From Coleofasciculus sp. LEGE 07092 (lineage in GTDB: Bacteria > Cyanobacteriota > Cyanobacteriia > Cyanobacteriales > Coleofasciculaceae): a DNA stretch of 33,445 bases. Below the pieces are notes generated by a model. It was not told where the DNA came from. It worked only from the letters and a program-made list of their open reading frames with translations, and did not search any database. Of this stretch, positions 24,720 to 33,445 are shown piece after piece. The position numbers and the translations under genes were made by a program. Each line of letters starts with the position of its first letter. Positions within the stretch are counted from its first letter, which is position 1. Location of the stretch: NCBI RefSeq assembly GCF_015207375.1, contig NZ_JADEWY010000077.1:1-33445 (forward strand). Direction: 5' to 3'.

Positions 24720-24936
24720 ATGCAGATAATAGCTGGATTCCCTGGATTGCATGGGTTGTTCATTGCCACACTCAGCATTATCCACTACAGACGCCAAAAA
24801 CGCAGCCAGAAATGCTTAATTGTATAACTGATATGTAGCTGTCTGCTGATTGTGGCTTGGTTGCTGACCATCACAAATGTATGGCTAGAGTCACAATCCT
24901 TCGTGTTATCACTCCTTGGCTGGTGGCTGGCTGCGA
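24720..24936 (+). pseudogene. broken copy A of the small membrane-protein gene
   Basis: Homologous to the 5' half of the intact gene at 27632-28036: MQIIAGFPGLHGLFIATLSI corresponds to MYIIAGLPGLHGLFIATLSI. A stop (TAA) follows codon 35 (KCLIV), where the intact copy has KCLIVEL. Similarity then continues in DNA to GGCTGGCTGCGA at 24936 and ends exactly where the intact copy has a HIP1 site (GCGATCGC). The 3' half is absent. The flanking CGGCTAAGGAGCGATCGCTC just upstream is shared with copy C. Confidence 0.8.
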
Positions 24937-24975
24937 GAGCGAACTTATCAGGATCATTTTGAGAGAGAACTTACC

Positions 24976-26013
24976 ATGCAACCTGAAACCCAACAACTTC
25001 TCGATACGCTCGAGGTTCTGACGGATGAACTGAGGTTTTGTGTCCCTAGAGAAAACAATGCATTTCATTACATCACCCCGTTTAGGTGGGACGTGGAGGC
25101 GCAAGGAGAACCGAATGCTTTGAATCTACTGAAGTTTAAAGGATCGGATCAATTTATGAAGTTTGAAAGATTGGTTCAACCTACGGATGCCGAGGTAGCG
25201 ATCGCCAATTGGCAAGCAATTGAGCGGCGAGGAACACCCATAGAAGATAATGATTATGCTCTAGAAGTTTTTGAAGAAGTAAACCAGCAAGAAGGTATTT
25301 TAAACCAGGAAACGCAAGCTAAAAGAGCAGCAGCATATCAATCACTATTACAGCTACTCAAATCAGAACTTCAGGAACTTCAAACCTATCGTTTTAGTCG
25401 TAGCCTCAACTTTAGCCACGAACAATACCAGATCTATGTCCTCTTGGGTAAAACTCAAGACAATGATTGGATTTGTCTGGCATCTACGGTTCCCAAACAA
25501 ACCAAGATTAAAGACCAGGAAATTTCTCGCTCTTTTGAGCGTGAATTTTCTGTATCTCAAGTCTCAGGAGCCCATACTAGCGCCATAGTATCTAGAATCG
25601 AGGAAATCCTAGCAGAACTCCCGCCACTGAAAACTTATGGTGTTTACGACGTAGGTTATAAATATACCTACGAACATAAGCTTATCTGCAAAGCAGCACC
25701 GACAAGGGAGCTAGCTTTTGAGAAAGCAGCCGATCTAGTTGAGATTGGTCGATTTAAGGGTTTTTATCCAGATGAAGATTACTTCCGCGAAGAAGTTCAC
25801 TACGATTATGAGTACGAGGAAAGAGAAATGGAACTTGACGAGTTCTATCTACGCTACCAAAATTTGAACCAATTTCTGACACAAAATCTTACCAACATCC
25901 TGGTCTACAGATTAAGTTTTTGGGATTGGGACTATATCTATATCCTCGGTCAAACTCAGGCAGGTGACTGGCTGGGGGTCGAGACAACTAATGAGTTTGT
26001 TTTTAATCCCTAG
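24976..26013 (+). CDS. protein with two nuclease A inhibitor (NuiA)-like halves
   Basis: A 345-aa protein using the ATG at 24976. The frame is open 20 codons further up, but that stretch is built from the end of broken copy A and has no better start. The first half (residues 1-170) has a NuiA-like plan: a helix, DELRFCVPRENNAFHY, then a helix SLLQLLKSELQELQTYRFS followed by YQIYVLLGKTQDNDWICLAST. The same ending recurs at the C-terminus: QFLTQNLTNILVYRLS, then YIYILGQTQAGDWLGVETT. In Anabaena, NuiA inhibits the nuclease NucA; that function is known only for the single-domain protein. A Tyr/Glu-rich acidic stretch (YPDEDYFREEVHYDYEYEER) separates the last parts. The assignment rests on pattern similarity by eye. 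Confidence 0.65.
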   Translation: MQPETQQLLDTLEVLTDELRFCVPRENNAFHYITPFRWDVEAQGEPNALNLLKFKGSDQFMKFERLVQPTDAEVAIANWQAIERRGTPIEDNDYALEVFEEVNQQEGILNQETQAKRAAAYQSLLQLLKSELQELQTYRFSRSLNFSHEQYQIYVLLGKTQDNDWICLASTVPKQTKIKDQEISRSFEREFSVSQVSGAHTSAIVSRIEEILAELPPLKTYGVYDVGYKYTYEHKLICKAAPTRELAFEKAADLVEIGRFKGFYPDEDYFREEVHYDYEYEEREMELDEFYLRYQNLNQFLTQNLTNILVYRLSFWDWDYIYILGQTQAGDWLGVETTNEFVFNP

Positions 26014-27497: not shown

Positions 27498-27631
27498 TTA
27501 AACCAAGTAGTTTCTTGAGCAAACTATAAGTAATATTAATAAATAGCTCGCTCACTTGTCCCAGACAAAAGTATCGCAGAATACAAAATTATGGGGGCTT
27601 GCTCCTGAAACGAAACTTTTCGATCTACTGA

Positions 27632-28036
27632 ATGTACATAATCGCTGGATTGCCTGGATTGCATGGGTTATTCATTGCCACACTCAGCATTATCCACTAC
27701 AGACGCACAAAACGTGGCAAGAAATGCTTAATTGTAGAATTGATATGTAGCTCTCTGCTGATTGTGGCTTGGTTGCTGATCATCACAAATGTATGGCTAG
27801 AGTCACAATCATTCGTGTTATCACTCTTTGGCTGGTGGCTGGCTGCGATCGCTACTCTCGTGCTAAATATTACCGCTATTGTCAAAGCGGTCAAGGCATT
27901 TAGAACCAAACGTAACAGATTTTTAAGTACAATTGGGGTATTGCTGAATTTCTCTGCCCTAATAATCTACTTAATCTTCGCGCTTTGGTTAACCTGGTTC
28001 TTCTTGCTGGCGCTGGCAGGTGCATCGTACCGATAA
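27632..28036 (+). CDS. small four-helix membrane protein, intact copy B
   Basis: A 134-aa protein of unknown function with about four hydrophobic segments (residues 1-20, 33-53, 62-86, 100-128) and short basic loops (HYRRTKRGKK, FRTKRNR). It is the only complete copy of three in this segment; copies A (24720) and C (28888) are broken. Its upstream DNA differs from that of A and C and abuts the decayed transposase. Repeat R2, 50 nt after its stop, carries the leader sequence seen before A and C. It may have come in with the repeat module. Confidence 0.7.
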   Translation: MYIIAGLPGLHGLFIATLSIIHYRRTKRGKKCLIVELICSSLLIVAWLLIITNVWLESQSFVLSLFGWWLAAIATLVLNITAIVKAVKAFRTKRNRFLSTIGVLLNFSALIIYLIFALWLTWFFLLALAGASYR

Positions 28037-28204: not shown

Positions 28205-28768
28205 TCAACCTTTCCCCACTTTCAACCATGCAAAAACTTGCTCGGCTGTTAGAGTCAGATTAATACCTTCAATCACTAAAAGCAGGCAATCTCCTCTACC
28301 CACTTTGGGTTCTTGATGCGGCGCAAACATTAGAACCGAGTAATCATCTGGATCAATCATCCAACCCAACTGACAGCCATAGCGTAGACAATGCAGGATG
28401 TTATCAATCACGGGAGTTGCTTTCTGATCGGGTGAAAGAATTTCAATAGTCCAATCGGGAGCTTTCGTAAAATTATCTTCTGGTTCTCCTACCTCATTAA
28501 CTTCAATTCGATTCCAACCAATAACCGCAACATCAGGTACAACAGAACGCCCCCCAAACGTACATCGCAGTTCAGGTAATGCTGTATAATCCTCGCTATT
28601 GTTGTCTATTACATTCAGCAGGCGTTTTTGCAGAATAGAGTGTCGAGTCTTGGGCATGGGTTTTTGAAGCGCTATTCCATCTACATACTCCCATGCTGGA
28701 GATTCTTCCACGTAGGTAAGCTTGAGAAAATCTTCAAGAGCGAGAGTTTGAGGAGGAGAGGCAGTCAT
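28205..28768 (-). CDS. Uma2 family endonuclease (DUF820)
   Basis: A 187-aa Uma2 protein with the PD-(D/E)xK-like core: RSVVPDVAVIGWNRI (Asp), then DWTIEILSPDQKATPVIDNILHC (Glu, Lys). The N-terminal LALEDFLKLTYVEESPAWEYVDG is the usual family opening and the end LTLTAEQVFAWLKVG the usual close. It differs clearly from the Uma2 gene at 14649. It lies between R2 and broken membrane-gene copy C, inside the repeat-bounded segment. The role of Uma2 proteins is not established. Confidence 0.9.
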   Translation of the reverse strand: MTASPPQTLALEDFLKLTYVEESPAWEYVDGIALQKPMPKTRHSILQKRLLNVIDNNSEDYTALPELRCTFGGRSVVPDVAVIGWNRIEVNEVGEPEDNFTKAPDWTIEILSPDQKATPVIDNILHCLRYGCQLGWMIDPDDYSVLMFAPHQEPKVGRGDCLLLVIEGINLTLTAEQVFAWLKVGKG

Positions 28769-28887
28769 CGTTTAGCTGGAGGAAAAATGCGCTTGGTTTC
28801 AGTATAACGGTAAATAGAAGAATCAAGATACTCTATTATCAACTAAACTCGGCTAAGGAGCGATCGCTCTAATCCTCAGAAATCACA

Positions 28888-29137
28888 ATGCAGATAATAG
28901 CTGGATTCCCTGGATTACATGGGTTGTTCATTGCCACACTCAGCATTATCCACTACAGACGCACAAAACGTGGCAAAAAATGCTTAATTGTAGAAACGTA
29001 ACCGACTTTTAAGTACAGTTGGGGTATTGCTGAATTTCCCTGCCCTGATAATCTACTTAATCTTCGCACTTTGGTTAACCTGGTTCTTCTTGATGGCGCT
29101 GGCACCTGCTATAGCTCCAGCACCCGCGTCTGAGTAA
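28888..29137 (+). pseudogene. broken copy C of the membrane-protein gene, joined to the PBP gene tail
   Basis: The first 36 codons match copies A and B (MQIIAGFPGLHGLFIATLSI). About 170 bp corresponding to 27740-27909 of copy B are then missing, which shifts the frame and gives a stop at 28999. Downstream, the copy B 3' part resumes (LSTVGVLLNFPALIIYLIFA). At TGGTTCTTCTTGATGGCGCTGGCA it switches to the last codons of the PBP gene (PAIAPAPASE and TAA). The copy B end (AGASYR) is absent. It is a two-way recombinant and cannot make the full protein. Confidence 0.82.
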
Positions 29138-29766: not shown

Positions 29767-29864
29767 GTTAACGCTTTGCAAAAACAACTCGCACAAGGGC
29801 GTGCCCAACTCGAAGCCACACAGTCACAAGTCAAGCAAGCCCAAGCCGCACAAGATGCGATCGC
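29767..29864 (+). pseudogene. coiled-coil remnant of an HlyD-type membrane-fusion protein
   Basis: VNALQKQLAQGRAQLEATQS and QVKQAQAAQDAIA have the Gln/Ala-rich heptads of HlyD/RND adaptor proteins. TetR and HlyD genes are often neighbours in efflux loci, which supports both calls. The fragment stops exactly at a HIP1 site (29857-29864), where DUF2442 sequence starts. Confidence 0.45.
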
Positions 29865-30089
29865 ATCATCATCAATTTAAAGAGTGGAGCGACTTTCAGT
29901 TTTCCATCAGCATTAGCGCAAAGTTTAGCAGGTGCTTCCCCGGAGGATTTAGCTGAGGTTGAAGTTACTCCATCCGGTGATGGGTTGCACTGGGAAAAGT
30001 TGGATGCGGATTTTAGTGTTCCTGGGCTTTTGGCTGGTGTGTTTGGGACTGCGGCTTAGATGGCTCAAGTTAAGATGAAGGCTGGTTAG
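29857..30089 (+). pseudogene. 5'-truncated DUF2442 pseudogene
   Basis: About 90% identical by eye to 33121-33353, the last two thirds of the intact DUF2442 gene. It reads DRIIINLKSGATFSFPSALA through SPEDLAEVEVTPSGDGLHW to the normal end, but a TGG-to-TAG change interrupts FGTAAW, and the first 40 residues are missing. The match begins at the shared HIP1 site. Confidence 0.88.
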
Positions 30090-30146
30090 GGAGCAAGCTT
30101 TCTCTACCTTTTCCTCGGTTTTCTCGTGGACTTCCCACAAATTGTC

Positions 30147-30171
30147 ACTCATAGTCTGTAGACTGATAGTC
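30147..30171. promoter_or_regulatory. C-box operator for the controller protein
   Basis: ACTCATAGTC, 5-nt centre TGTAG, ACTGATAGTC. This matches the known C-box pattern of restriction-modification controller genes (paired ACTnATAGTC half-sites). It ends 23 nt before the GTG of the C gene. A possible -10 (TATTAA, 30186-30191) lies between them. C proteins use this box to activate and, at higher dose, repress their own promoter. Confidence 0.88.
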
Positions 30172-30194
30172 TGCACTGCGGTCAATATTAAGCC

Positions 30195-30410
30195 GTGAGG
30201 CAAACAGATATCAAGCAACGCTTTGGGCTTGCCATCAAGCAGCGTAGGCAAGAGTTAGGAATATCACAAGAAGAGCTTTCTTTTCGAGCTGGACTTCACC
30301 GGACTTATGTCTCGGACATTGAGAGAGGTTGCCGCAATCCCTCGCTGGAAAATATAGACAAGTTGTCAAAGGCATTACAAATTTCTGTTTCTGCCCTCTT
30401 TGCTCACTAA
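30195..30410 (+). CDS. restriction-modification controller (C) protein, XRE-type HTH
   Basis: A 71-aa protein, the usual size for C proteins. It is a single helix-turn-helix domain: GLAIKQRRQELGISQEELSF, RAGLHRTYVSDIERGCRNPS, LENIDKLSKAL. The GTG start at 30195 is just behind the C-box, with no clear ribosome site, as is common for the leaderless or short-leader C transcripts. It is predicted to bind the C-box as a dimer pair and time expression of the downstream endonuclease after methyltransferase has built up. The endonuclease frame opens directly after its stop codon. Confidence 0.92.
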   Translation: MRQTDIKQRFGLAIKQRRQELGISQEELSFRAGLHRTYVSDIERGCRNPSLENIDKLSKALQISVSALFAH

Positions 30411-30428
30411 TGTATAGCTATATTTTCT

Positions 30429-30989
30429 TTGCTTAACTCACAAATTCAAAAGGAAGCACAAGAAGAAGTTTCTTCAAAATTCTTAACTCTATTCAGCTCT
30501 GATCAATTTAATGATGGTAGAGATTTATCAAAAATTGCACCTTTTAAAAATAAAATTTTCCTTCCGAGTCCGGATTATATTATTACTGTTATTAATAACA
30601 GAGAAACTTCAGTACTAATTCAATCTCTTTTAGAAGAGCAAGCAAGAAAGCCAGATAGTTTATCGATTTATAACTTATTGAAAGGGAAACTAAAGGTAGA
30701 AGAAGTAAAAGCAGTAGTTTCTCTCAAAACTTCCAACCGTCCCGATCGCCGATATCAACCGTTATTTGAAGCAGCTATGATTAAAGCCATGAGATATGTC
30801 TTGCATCAAAATTGGCAGTATTATATGGTTGCTAGTGAACTCAGCTCTGCGGATAGAACTATATTTAGTACAGCCGTTGCTCCTCATGGCATTGCGATTG
30901 AGCAAGACTCCCAACTAGTAGATGGTACATACTTGTATAACCGAAAACTAGATTTAGTCCCATTAGTCGAATCTGCTCTTGAGCAATAA
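30429..30989 (+). CDS. type II restriction endonuclease, CCGG family (Cfr10I/Bse634I/NgoMIV-like), N-terminally short
   Basis: A 186-aa nuclease. The active-site set is PD at 48-49, SLK at 98-100 and Glu114, 14 residues after the Lys. The spacing PD-x~50-SxK-x13-E matches Cfr10I, Bse634I and NgoMIV. The Lys is followed by TSNRPDRRY, and the R-P-D-R module is known to read the CCGG core in this family. A site containing CCGG (for example RCCGGY) is therefore predicted. The family is normally about 270-340 aa. Here the roughly 90 residues before the PD site, including a conserved Glu, are absent. The TTG start lacks a ribosome site. It may be truncated and inactive, or translated by coupling to the C gene 18 nt upstream. 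Confidence 0.8.
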   Translation: MLNSQIQKEAQEEVSSKFLTLFSSDQFNDGRDLSKIAPFKNKIFLPSPDYIITVINNRETSVLIQSLLEEQARKPDSLSIYNLLKGKLKVEEVKAVVSLKTSNRPDRRYQPLFEAAMIKAMRYVLHQNWQYYMVASELSSADRTIFSTAVAPHGIAIEQDSQLVDGTYLYNRKLDLVPLVESALEQ

Positions 30990-31006
30990 CTGTTTAATAA
31001 ATAGCT

Positions 31007-32206
31007 TTAAAAGATAAAAAGTGGTAACTCTAGCTGCTTTTTTTCTGGCTCTTCATAATCCCATTCAGTTGTTTTTAAAAAATCAAGAATAGTTTTGGCA
31101 ATTGCTTTTGCTGCTAAATAAGGAACGCCATTGCCAATTGTTTTAAACATATTCGTCAGGGGCATTTTATCAGGAAGTGTGAAGTTTGAGGGTAAAGATT
31201 GTATAGCAAGAGCTTCAGCAACGGAGATACGGCGTACTTTATAGGGATGTAAGTGAACTTCGTTATTTCCATAGCAAGCTGTGGGAGAGTAACGCCATCG
31301 ATGAAGACGCTTATAAGATTTTTTTGAATCATCTCCTTCAGCAACAGAAGCAAATCTTTTTAGACCAGCTCTTGGTTTAAAATAGTGTTTAGCATTAGGG
31401 TGATTAAAGACATCGTTTTGCTTAAACCAATATTCAACAGTTAGTTGATTAGGAATACCTTTAGGACAAGGCAATTTAGAATCTTCTTGAAATGGAGCAG
31501 TAGAAGACCAAGGATAAGAAAATACTTCGGATTTAGGATATAAAATATACTTGTGCCATGGGAAAAGGCTTTCGGGCAGAACTTTTGCTCCATTCTCAAT
31601 CTTGATTCCCATGTCTTCGATTAAATTTCGGCGGAATCCTATGAGAATAATTCTGTCTCTGTTTTGTGGGACACCGTACTCTAGGGCATTAATTAAACGT
31701 TCTACTAAAATATAACCAGCTTGATTAAGCTGAATCTTCAGTTGTTCAAAAAAAATCCGATGTTTTTGGGTCTTCCATAATCCCTTAACATTTTCAAATA
31801 AAAAGAAGTCGGGTTGATGTTGGCAAATTAATTCGACATAGGAAGCGGAAAGCTTACCATTCTCTCCTTCCTTGCCTCGGTTTTTTCCTCCAACTGAGAA
31901 GTCAGGGCAGGGAGGACCTCCAATAAAGCCAATAATATCAGTAGACTGGCGAGCATCCTGTATCAAAGACCAAAGACGTAGTGCTTGTTCACCCTCTGTC
32001 AGTTTATCAACGTCTCCTTCTTCTCTCTCATGGTAGCCGTATTCGGGTAATGGCAGGTTAAGAACTTGCCGAGAATAACGGTAAGCCTCCATATAAGACG
32101 TATTAATTTCGTTGACATAAACAATATCAAAGCCATTGGCTTCAAAACCTAAATCGAGAAATCCAGATCCGGCAAAAAAAGAGAAGATTTTGGGGCGAAG
32201 GGTCAT
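31007..32206 (-). CDS. DNA (cytosine-5) methyltransferase of the R-M system
   Basis: A 399-aa C5-methyltransferase. Motif I is FSFFAGSGFLDLGF, motif IV GGPPCPDFS with nucleophile C100, motif VI ENV (138-140), motif VIII QNRDR (181-185), and motifs IX-X RRISVAEALAIQSLP and TIGNGVP. The target recognition region is about residues 190-330 and includes LHRWRYSPTACYGNNEVHLH. It should methylate a cytosine in the endonuclease site, predicted to contain CCGG. It converges on the endonuclease with a 17-nt gap. The gene is visibly AT-richer than the window's core genes, consistent with transfer. Confidence 0.95.
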   Translation of the reverse strand: MTLRPKIFSFFAGSGFLDLGFEANGFDIVYVNEINTSYMEAYRYSRQVLNLPLPEYGYHEREEGDVDKLTEGEQALRLWSLIQDARQSTDIIGFIGGPPCPDFSVGGKNRGKEGENGKLSASYVELICQHQPDFFLFENVKGLWKTQKHRIFFEQLKIQLNQAGYILVERLINALEYGVPQNRDRIILIGFRRNLIEDMGIKIENGAKVLPESLFPWHKYILYPKSEVFSYPWSSTAPFQEDSKLPCPKGIPNQLTVEYWFKQNDVFNHPNAKHYFKPRAGLKRFASVAEGDDSKKSYKRLHRWRYSPTACYGNNEVHLHPYKVRRISVAEALAIQSLPSNFTLPDKMPLTNMFKTIGNGVPYLAAKAIAKTILDFLKTTEWDYEEPEKKQLELPLFIF

Positions 32207-32246: not shown

Positions 32247-32291
32247 TTATTTAGATGTGTCGGCATCTAGGTGCAGCCGCAGTTTAGACAT
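32247..32291 (-). pseudogene. start of a DUF5615 (PIN-like) toxin gene, cut off after 14 codons
   Basis: ATG at 32291 overlaps the last 8 nt of the DUF433 gene, the usual arrangement of DUF433-DUF5615 pairs. It reads MSKLRLHLDADTSK and then stops (TAA at 32247). LHLDADTS matches the first strand and acidic residues of DUF5615 proteins. The remaining roughly 100 codons are missing. The methyltransferase gene starts 40 nt further on. Confidence 0.6.
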
Positions 32292-32682
32292 GAGCTGCTT
32301 CTAAAGCTTGTTCAGCAGCGATCGCATCATCGATTTCCGAACGGTGGACGTTATAGAATGCTAGAGCATCATTGACTTGTGCTTCATTCAAATCATACTC
32401 AGCGGCTATCTGACTTGGGGATAAACTCCATTGTTGAGCAGCAATGACTACGGTTTGTACTCGTAGATTAGTCCCGCGCAGAATAGGTACAAGTTGACCG
32501 CTAGCACCGCGACGATAGGTAATATGAGGAAAACTTGGGTCGTTAAGTTGTTGGTTGAGGGACTTTACTTTTTCAGCTATGGCGTCCAACATGAAGGCTT
32601 CCAGAGGAATACCTTGCTGGGATGCCCAGTTTTCGGCTTCCTGCTTTAATTCATTGGGTAAGTTCAGGGAGTAGGATGTCAT
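32284..32682 (-). CDS. DUF433 domain protein, antitoxin-like
   Basis: A 132-aa protein. The N-terminal part (SLNLPNELKQEAENWASQQG) looks like a ribbon-helix-helix region. The DUF433 winged-helix domain follows: ITYRRGASGQLVPILRGTNLRVQTVV and LSPSQIAAEYDLNEAQVNDALAFY. DUF433 proteins usually pair with DUF5615 PIN-like proteins in toxin-antitoxin-type operons. Here only the first 14 codons of that partner remain. It therefore appears to be an orphan antitoxin-like gene upstream of the methyltransferase on the same strand. Confidence 0.85.
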   Translation of the reverse strand: MTSYSLNLPNELKQEAENWASQQGIPLEAFMLDAIAEKVKSLNQQLNDPSFPHITYRRGASGQLVPILRGTNLRVQTVVIAAQQWSLSPSQIAAEYDLNEAQVNDALAFYNVHRSEIDDAIAAEQALEAAHV

Positions 32683-32764: not shown

Positions 32765-33007
32765 ATGCCAACTGTTCTCCGAAAGGATGGCTTTGCTGTC
32801 CGCATTTACTTTAACGATCACTTACCTCCTCACGTTCATGTTTTCAAAGGTGGAGGACAGGTGAGAATTAGTTTGGGGAGTGAGGCTGAAGAACCTGAAC
32901 TAGTTCAGATAGAAGGAATGAGTGATAAAGATGCGGCAAAAGCACTGGCAATAGTAATTGAACACCAATTAGAACTACTGAAAAAATGGGAGGAAATTCA
33001 TGGTTAA
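32765..33007 (+). CDS. DUF4160 domain protein
   Basis: An 80-aa protein from the ATG at 32765 (MPTVLRKDGFAVRIYFNDH, the family start; an upstream in-frame start would add eight residues). The PPHVHVFKGGGQVRISLG strand pattern is the DUF4160 core. DUF4160 genes commonly sit directly before DUF2442 genes, and the pair is suspected to be a toxin-antitoxin type module, although this is unproven. Its last 8 nt overlap the next gene (ATGGTTAA), so translation is probably coupled. Confidence 0.88.
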   Translation: MPTVLRKDGFAVRIYFNDHLPPHVHVFKGGGQVRISLGSEAEEPELVQIEGMSDKDAAKALAIVIEHQLELLKKWEEIHG

Positions 33008-33353
33008 TTCAGGTTGGGATGAAGCAACTCTGAAAGCTGCGATCGCAAAAGCAAGAGAAACCGCAGCAATTGCGAATGCTGTGGAACCTAGAGCTGAGTC
33101 AGCGTATTATGACCAGAGTAGCGATCGCATCGTGATCAATTTGAGGAGTGGAGCGATTTACATCTTTCCCTCAGCACTAGCACAGGGTTTGGCAGGTGCT
33201 TCCCCAGAGGATTTAGCTGGGGTGGAAGTTACGCCATCGGGTGATGGGTTGCACTGGGAAAAGCTGGATGCGGATTTTAGTGTTCCTGCGCTTTTGGCTG
33301 GTGTGTTCGGAACTGCGGCTTGGATGGCTCAAGTTAAGATGAAAGCTGGTTAG
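33000..33353 (+). CDS. DUF2442 domain protein
   Basis: A 117-aa intact DUF2442 protein. The N-terminal helix (NSGWDEATLKAAIAKARE) is followed by the DUF2442 domain: SDRIVINLRSGAIYIFPSAL, LAGASPEDLAGVEVTPSGDG, HWEKLDADFSVPALLAGVFG. It overlaps DUF4160 by 8 nt and is its predicted partner. A truncated relative lies at 29857-30089 on the other side of the restriction-modification genes. Confidence 0.9.
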   Translation: MVNSGWDEATLKAAIAKARETAAIANAVEPRAESAYYDQSSDRIVINLRSGAIYIFPSALAQGLAGASPEDLAGVEVTPSGDGLHWEKLDADFSVPALLAGVFGTAAWMAQVKMKAG

Positions 33354-33393
33354 GGTGCGATCGCATTTCCTTTTTAGGATGCATTGTGGTTCA

Positions 33394-33424
33394 GATCCCC
33401 GACTTCTTGGAGAAGTCGGGGATC
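33394..33424. repeat. perfect 31-nt palindrome, dispersed cyanobacterial repeat or terminator
   Basis: GATCCCCGACTTCT (33394-33407), loop TGG, AGAAGTCGGGGATC (33411-33424): a 14-bp perfect stem. Sequences of this type (GATCCCCGACTTCT...AGAAGTCGGGGATC) are familiar as a repeated intergenic element in filamentous cyanobacteria. It could end the DUF4160-DUF2442 transcript. Confidence 0.85.
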
Positions 33425-33445
33425 TCCTTACACTTACTCCCCCAC

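Follow-up and report, generated by a model that had tools for sequence, protein, structure and literature searches.

Cfr10I and Bse634I are type IIF restriction endonucleases (REases) that cut R/CCGGY (PMC4652773, table). For this site a methylase is known from cyanobacteria: DmtD, or M.AvaIX, present in Anabaena and others, is a 5-methylcytosine (m5C) methyltransferase specific for RCCGGY (PMC4390886, PMC8112702). In Anabaena variabilis 1168 of 1311 RCCGGY sites were found to be methylated, and in A. flos-aquae 743 of 1039 (PMC8112702). The legend to Figure 5 of Elhai 2015 gives REase columns for other sites and none for rCCGGy (PMC4390886). In PvuII, Esp1396I and Kpn2I, a small helix-turn-helix (HTH) controller (C) gene precedes the REase gene and has its own binding site, the C-box. 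Within the PvuII group, C and REase also occur fused (PMC3850674). Kpn2I is a CCGG-family REase with the site T/CCGGA (PMC6344858), and its system includes a C protein, whose site lies within the C gene, and a weak REase promoter that is constitutive (PMC6237814). Here we analyse a 33,445-nucleotide (nt) contig of the cyanobacterium Coleofasciculus sp. LEGE 07092 (NZ_JADEWY010000077.1, hereafter the window; contig C63 in a draft genome of 6.7 Mb and 296 contigs), which carries a C-box, a C gene, the remnant of a Cfr10I/Bse634I-type REase gene and a C5-cytosine methyltransferase gene. We put at about 0.82 the probability that this is a C-controlled RCCGGY restriction-modification (R-M) system in which the REase has recently been put out of action, while C and a probably active methyltransferase remain.

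The window REase belongs to the same Pfam family as Cfr10I and Bse634I and has the PD...K...E and RPDRR motifs in the same order. The C-terminal two thirds of the two enzymes align with it, and a full-length cyanobacterial relative is predicted to adopt their fold. Cfr10I and Bse634I keep the N-terminal third, however, while the window protein is without the positions of N73 and E80 (Bse634I numbering). As described for PvuII, Esp1396I and Kpn2I, a small HTH gene stands before the REase with a C-box upstream, but the window system is predicted to recognise RCCGGY, its methyltransferase gene is convergent at the far end and its REase is truncated; the C-box also lies upstream of C, whereas the Kpn2I C site lies within the gene. 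Like DmtD/M.AvaIX, the window methyltransferase is a cyanobacterial C5-methyltransferase with the same predicted site, of a kind often found here without an REase, a likeness drawn from REase partners and site depletion. Unlike DmtD/M.AvaIX, it still stands beside C and an REase remnant. In the literature searched, which covered few subscription papers, we recognised no account of a cyanobacterial RCCGGY system under C control, nor of a decaying REase beside DmtD.

The REase frame matches PF07832 with an E value of 8.7e-50 and 170 bits (cut-off 27), and its sequence matches in the PDB are Cfr10I, Bse634I and SgrAI. The match covers only positions 94–280 of the 281-position profile (from 93 in the genome search). 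In nine C-bearing relative rows of the alignment, 310–334 nt separate C residue 71 from the first shared REase residue, and in the five closest rows, two of which are one sequence, the distance is 316–319 nt. In the window it is 3 nt, the C stop codon only. The DNA alignment with 16 relative rows (14 distinct sequences) shows a single gap that removes the C tail, the REase start and the N-terminal codons of the window, and the scar sets TAA (30408–30410) directly 5' of the REase frame. Measured against relative L016, the loss comes to 98 residues, or to 104 if counted up to TTG 30429, where the frame has its first start codon. The N-terminal part is present in every aligned relative row except that of G098, a genome whose separate deletion spares the REase start and the first codons but changes the frame after them. 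C-bearing relatives start their REase with ATG (GTG in L006) just behind or overlapping the end of C. In the window, an ATG at 30410 reads eight codons and then meets a stop, and no ribosome site for the TTG was seen by eye. Behind C there is no intact REase gene, its start codon and about 98 codons being gone. A profile search of the genome returned no second PF07832 copy, and a displaced N-terminal REase piece, also considered, was not found elsewhere in the genome by a kind of search that did detect an isolated N-terminal fragment in genome G003.

These features suggest the following history. In the working ancestor the methyltransferase would have marked one cytosine per RCCGGY, and C, bound to the C-box, would have raised expression of itself and of the following REase gene after protection was established. 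A deletion of about 310–320 nt would have taken the end of C together with the start codon and about 98 codons of the REase gene, and with them the helix carrying the outer-base-pair contact and one active-site glutamate. What would remain is C, an REase fragment that is not made or is inactive, and a full-length methyltransferase acting alone on RCCGGY.

The missing segment should bear on activity. Intact relatives carry the motif GALN(N/K)xxGxWNE 5' of the shared REase part, and the motif is gone in the window. A profile of cyanobacterial REases aligned with Bse634I places GALNNxxGxWNE on residues 69–80 (counted from the printed profile alignment), covering N73 and E80, the latter of which we take to be the Bse634I counterpart of the family's N-terminal-helix active-site residue. 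The glutamate of GALN..WNE is kept in intact relatives, and the N73 position is K in L006, L020 and L021. The N-terminal helix with both positions, a feature of the PF07832 family, is absent from the window protein. Within the family these positions have been assigned to outer-pair contact and to the active site (PMC4652773). The N-terminal helix of PfoI bears E113, a catalytic residue, and touches CCGG as well as the outer pair; the matching mutation, E113A, lowers cleavage about 50-fold and weakens binding (PMC6344858).

AlphaFold models made from the same eight alignment rows reached a predicted local distance difference test (pLDDT) score of 81.9 for the full-length relative L016 and 55.2 for the window fragment. 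In Foldseek searches the L016 model had Bse634I and Cfr10I on top (E 4.0e-13 and 6.0e-13; template modelling (TM) scores 0.70–0.73), and the best E value for the window fragment was 1.2e-5, with TM scores to family targets of at most 0.36. Helix 66–96 of the L016 model is deleted in the window, and strand 99–104 lies within the window's open frame but 5' of TTG 30429. Because 98–104 N-terminal residues, the N73/E80 positions and the native start codon are missing, restriction has probably been lost, the REase fragment being not made or not active, and tetrameric R/CCGGY cleavage by the window REase is predicted to be absent.

The initial annotation of this DNA had assumed a working C-protein-controlled type II R-M system. 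The type of locus stands, with C, C-box, REase family and methyltransferase all recognisable; a working system is not supported, since the REase is truncated, a loss that the annotation had overlooked. The catalytic residues D49, K100 and E114 and the module R104-P-D-R-R108 (RPDRRY) lie where they had been placed, in numbering from the TTG start. D49, K100, E114, R104, D106, R107 and R108 are invariant in the alignment of relatives, and P105 is replaced by S in L019. The structural check proposed there, that a model should bring D49, K100 and E114 together, is blind to the truncation, since all three lie in the remaining part.

The C-box with two ACTnATAGTC half-sites, ACTCATAGTC at 30147 and ACTGATAGTC at 30162, is present as first reported. 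These are the only ACTnATAGTC sites on either strand of the 33.4 kb window, where 0.33 would be expected from base composition. A left half-site of this sequence occurs 49–61 nt 5' of C in seven of ten C-bearing relative rows (the identical pair L004 and L016 among the seven). L012 has it as right half-site only, and L009 and L011 have no ACTnATAGTC half-site; most of the ten rows have a degenerate right half-site. The 71-residue HTH gene behind the C-box was likewise read correctly: its product matches PADLOC Control_protein (2.6e-22) and HTH_3 (1.7e-18), and it ends 4–10 residues before the C proteins of relatives (75–81 residues from the aligned start). C would be expected to act through the C-box, as in the PvuII-like systems.

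Positions of the R-M genes, the deletion scar and the flanking features in the window (aa, amino acids)
Feature	Position	Strand	Remark
C-box	30147..30171	+	two ACTnATAGTC half-sites, starts 15 nt apart
C (controller) gene	30195..30410	+	71 aa HTH protein, GTG start
Inferred deletion scar	30405..30413		joins C tail to REase codon ~99; DNA alignment, 16 relative rows
REase remnant	30429..30989 (open frame from 30411)	+	186 aa from TTG 30429, Cfr10I/Bse634I family
C5-cytosine methyltransferase	31007..32206	-	399 aa, full length, convergent with REase
Partial DUF2442 copy	29857..30094	+	direct repeat of 33121-33358, left of R-M block
DUF433 gene	32284..32682	-	PF04255 2.1e-6, right of R-M block
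Second repeat copy	33121..33358	+	within/just past intact DUF2442 gene (33000-33353)

The convergent C5-methyltransferase also agrees with the first description. It matches PF00145 (8.7e-53) and PADLOC MTase_II (9.8e-173), has the motifs FAGSG, GGPPC, ENV, QNRDR and GNGVP, and is 54–77% identical to methyltransferases adjoining full-length REases. Methyltransferases 61% and 52% identical to it, the first from a Nostoc sp. HK-01 plasmid and the second from a Moraxella osloensis plasmid, are convergent with genes annotated as REases of the Cfr10I or Cfr10I/Bse634I family. Those REase genes are full length (846 and 858 bp), whereas the window's is truncated, and unlike the window neither plasmid pair has a gene annotated as C. 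Phage records gave three matches, at most 55% identical. The predicted CCGG core of the recognition site is likely, given membership of the Cfr10I/Bse634I family (PF07832), and can be refined: the full site is most probably RCCGGY, on the indirect evidence of the REase family, the Cfr10I-type plasmid partners and the site depletion seen in some genomes. The window methyltransferase is most likely active, marking RCCGGY without cutting. A second methyltransferase copy in the window's genome, on contig C66 (L058:5194-5549), has collapsed, with residues 92–156 and 320–381 adjoining and the rest missing.

Site depletion was measured as the observed-to-expected ratio (O/E) of RCCGGY with YCCGGR as control, in 140–355 kb sampled per genome. 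Genome G101, with an intact pair, gave 0.05 for RCCGGY and 0.69 for YCCGGR. G147, whose methyltransferase is solitary, gave 0.80 and 0.82. Two genomes with neither gene gave 0.96 and 0.97 (G160) and 0.18 and 0.61 (G014). ACCGGT was counted in 32 hand-picked genomes: ten with an intact pair (G199, G429 and eight from our sample of the order, in which 11 genomes have an open REase frame, without G016, G107 and G043), three with a broken REase (G003 left out), 9 of 27 solitary and 10 of 153 with neither gene. The medians were 14.5 per Mb for intact pairs, 91.0 for solitary methyltransferases and 101.9 for neither (Mann-Whitney, with no kinship correction: intact versus solitary p=0.003, intact versus neither p=0.014, solitary versus neither p=0.78). 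ACCGGT counts alone cannot tell RCCGGY from ACCGGT, but the O/E of G101 covers all RCCGGY forms. Among the broken REases, the window's genome has 79.0 per Mb, nearer the solitary median than that of intact pairs, G123 has 73.4 and G098 has 4.4, a low value that would fit a very recent REase loss.

Within families the picture is mixed. The contrast is strong in family f1 (paired G101 2.7 and G199 20.4 versus solitary G065 108.9 and G147 98.3 ACCGGT per Mb) and in f32 (paired G139 0.8 versus solitary G152 101.6). It is absent in f2 (paired G092 76.6 versus solitary G001 91.0, G033 105.5 and G056 37.5) and in f33 (paired G429 38.9 versus 34.3–37.2 in solitary G111, G168 and G154). The rest of the contrast comes from families of which only paired genomes were counted. 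Some genomes with neither gene are yet low in ACCGGT (G014, G004 and G037, 13.5–15.9 per Mb; G017, 26.0 per Mb). As a clean marker, site depletion thus failed in part, through f2, f33 and these low genomes. For G014, G004 and G037, another enzyme for ACCGGT, past or present, is suggested. In the 355 kb sampled from the window's genome, GGCGCC is nearly absent (O/E 0.04); the G101, G147 and G014 samples have none and that of G160 has little (0.37), so its avoidance is not strain-specific.

Several observations weigh against the favoured reading. None of the 28 columns invariant in 18 other rows is altered in the window fragment, and of the 60 columns conserved at 85% only one is; its 186 codons are open, as is the C gene. 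The deletion junction rests on one assembly. RCCGGY in the window's genome (O/E 0.61) is hardly below YCCGGR (0.75), and the argument from 79 ACCGGT per Mb is made weak by the paired-looking G092. For comparison, 5 of 58 strongly conserved columns are altered in the broken REase of G098. A fragment so well conserved implies that the deletion is very recent or that the fragment is still selected, and we consider a recent deletion the likelier.

Continued selection could mean that the short protein is kept for another role, such as a DNA-binding or dominant-negative partner, or that a C-REase product is made by readthrough of the TAA; we consider both very unlikely. C and the REase core do share a frame with a single TAA between them, the fragment is conserved, G098 too, after its separate N-terminal deletion, retains an open core that has an ATG, and C-REase fusions with both activities exist (PMC3850674). 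However, in G098 that frame is interrupted by TAA, TGA and TGA on the way from C to the core, two same-frame cases would arise by chance about once in nine, the fragment model is poor, and a fusion would still be without the N73/E80 positions. That the system is complete and the 186-residue protein a short working REase seems very unlikely. The intact D49, K100, E114 and RPDRRY, the unchanged conserved columns and the open frame would accord with it, but no intact-frame relative aligned is without the helix bearing the conserved glutamate; here helix 66–96 and the start codon are deleted, strand 99–104 lies upstream of the TTG, and ACCGGT is not strongly depleted in the window's genome. An assembly error, with an intact REase in the living strain, is highly improbable, for although the genome is a 296-contig draft and the fragment well conserved, the junction is internal to a 33 kb contig and resembles a plain deletion scar, and G098 shows an independent similar loss.

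The proposed recent disablement of the REase is placed in context by its relatives. A PF07832 match was found in 15 of 195 genomes of the order: 11 have an open frame across GALN..WE, two have N-terminal deletions (the window and G098), G123 has a frameshift ahead of the GALN..WE region that may be a sequencing error, and G003 has an N-terminal fragment only. All seven named contigs with close REase relatives are cyanobacterial. The methyltransferase was found at E 1e-100 or better in 40 of the 195 genomes, 13 with a PF07832 match and 27 without, a split made by comparing two genome lists by hand. In a methyltransferase tree of 45 rows, whose bootstrap is not quite settled, REase-linked and solitary rows interleave, with eight state changes, at least five of them forced by starred branches, compared with a mean of about 15 for shuffled states; the states therefore cluster yet switch repeatedly. 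The 20 REase-linked rows of the tree include the frameshifted G123 and the identical pairs L016/L071 and L018/L070. Its solitary rows come from 22 of the 27 solitary genomes (without G090, G121, G136, G150 and G179) and from G195, counted solitary from its 4.3 kb contig only, and the C66 remnant was left out. The interleaving fits either REase loss or REase gain. One relative, L011 (G043:C36), has a divergent REase and a C gene with a downstream DNA methyltransferase of SPPY type, not C5, and its REase may therefore be paired with a different class of partner.

Comparison of loci and of gene distances favours, without proving it, an old REase–methyltransferase pair whose REase has repeatedly been lost in place. 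Paired G092 shares its locus with the solitary congeners G001, G033, G166, G109 and G179 and with G056 of the same family. The flank is common to about L155:9175 and the methyltransferase begins at about L155:10330, with an REase between them in G092 only. Paired G429 has the REase-side flank in common with solitary G058, G191 and G154; in G058 and G191 the other flank is also shared, at a different distance. Paired G139 and solitary G055 and G152 have one flank only in common. In nine solitary gaps, the search for REase remnants gave only weak matches (best 30 nt at 73%, E 0.02, L156), and at 27 solitary-type loci, some overlapping and L058 among them, usually with about 1.5 kb of flank, the best E value was 0.45. 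REase-core and methyltransferase distances are correlated (Mantel r 0.897 for 18 pairs and 0.711 for the 14 closer ones, p 0.0001; without G016, G107, G043 and duplicates, and with three broken loci included by their remaining core), a correlation that can arise from shared species history alone. The window's genome itself shows turnover, with the collapsed methyltransferase on C66 and a full-length one beside a broken REase. We give even odds to the broader proposal that solitary cyanobacterial RCCGGY methylases of the DmtD kind are the remains of complete Cfr10I-type R-M systems at old, vertically inherited loci where the REase is repeatedly lost in place, with the window, G098 and, if its frameshift is real, G123 as intermediates.

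For the strain, no restriction barrier to transformation is expected from this locus, and RCCGGY is probably marked and not cut. Elhai 2015 handles cyanobacterial RCCGGY through the methylase (PMC4390886), and here the methylase family is seen with, without and with a broken REase. Because paired, solitary and broken states all occur, the first two at one shared locus in each of two families, the origin of solitary methylases becomes directly testable, as does the change of site depletion after REase loss. The process is ordinary gene decay, and the window may offer a snapshot of how solitary RCCGGY methylases arise; its interest lies in the series of paired, broken and solitary states of the methyltransferase rather than in a new mechanism.

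The flanks bear on the window's own history. A direct repeat of 238 nt (89% identical, spacing 3264) encloses the R-M block, the DUF433 gene and a DUF4160 gene. In G198, of the same family, DUF2442 and DUF433-like genes lie about 72 nt apart with no R-M genes between them, and in the window a 2.19 kb R-M block stands between the DUF2442 and DUF433 genes. These arrangements suggest that the R-M block may have been inserted at the locus, possibly by target duplication, but gene order further right differs, which makes this reading tentative.

Other features lie nearby. The DUF4160 protein has a weak likeness to the toxin DhiT (4.7e-8, below its cut-off). Direct repeats of 109 and 116 nt (94% and 92%) at 27631-28023 and 28887-29109 flank a Uma2-family gene (28205-28768, minus strand), another cassette-like arrangement. 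A 365-residue protein at 24916-26013 has nuclease A inhibitor-like (NuiA) matches (PF07924, 3.2e-20, in two stretches). A 33-nt inverted repeat with 14-nt arms at about 33389-33425 has many contigs of many relatives among the matches listed and looks like a dispersed palindromic repeat.

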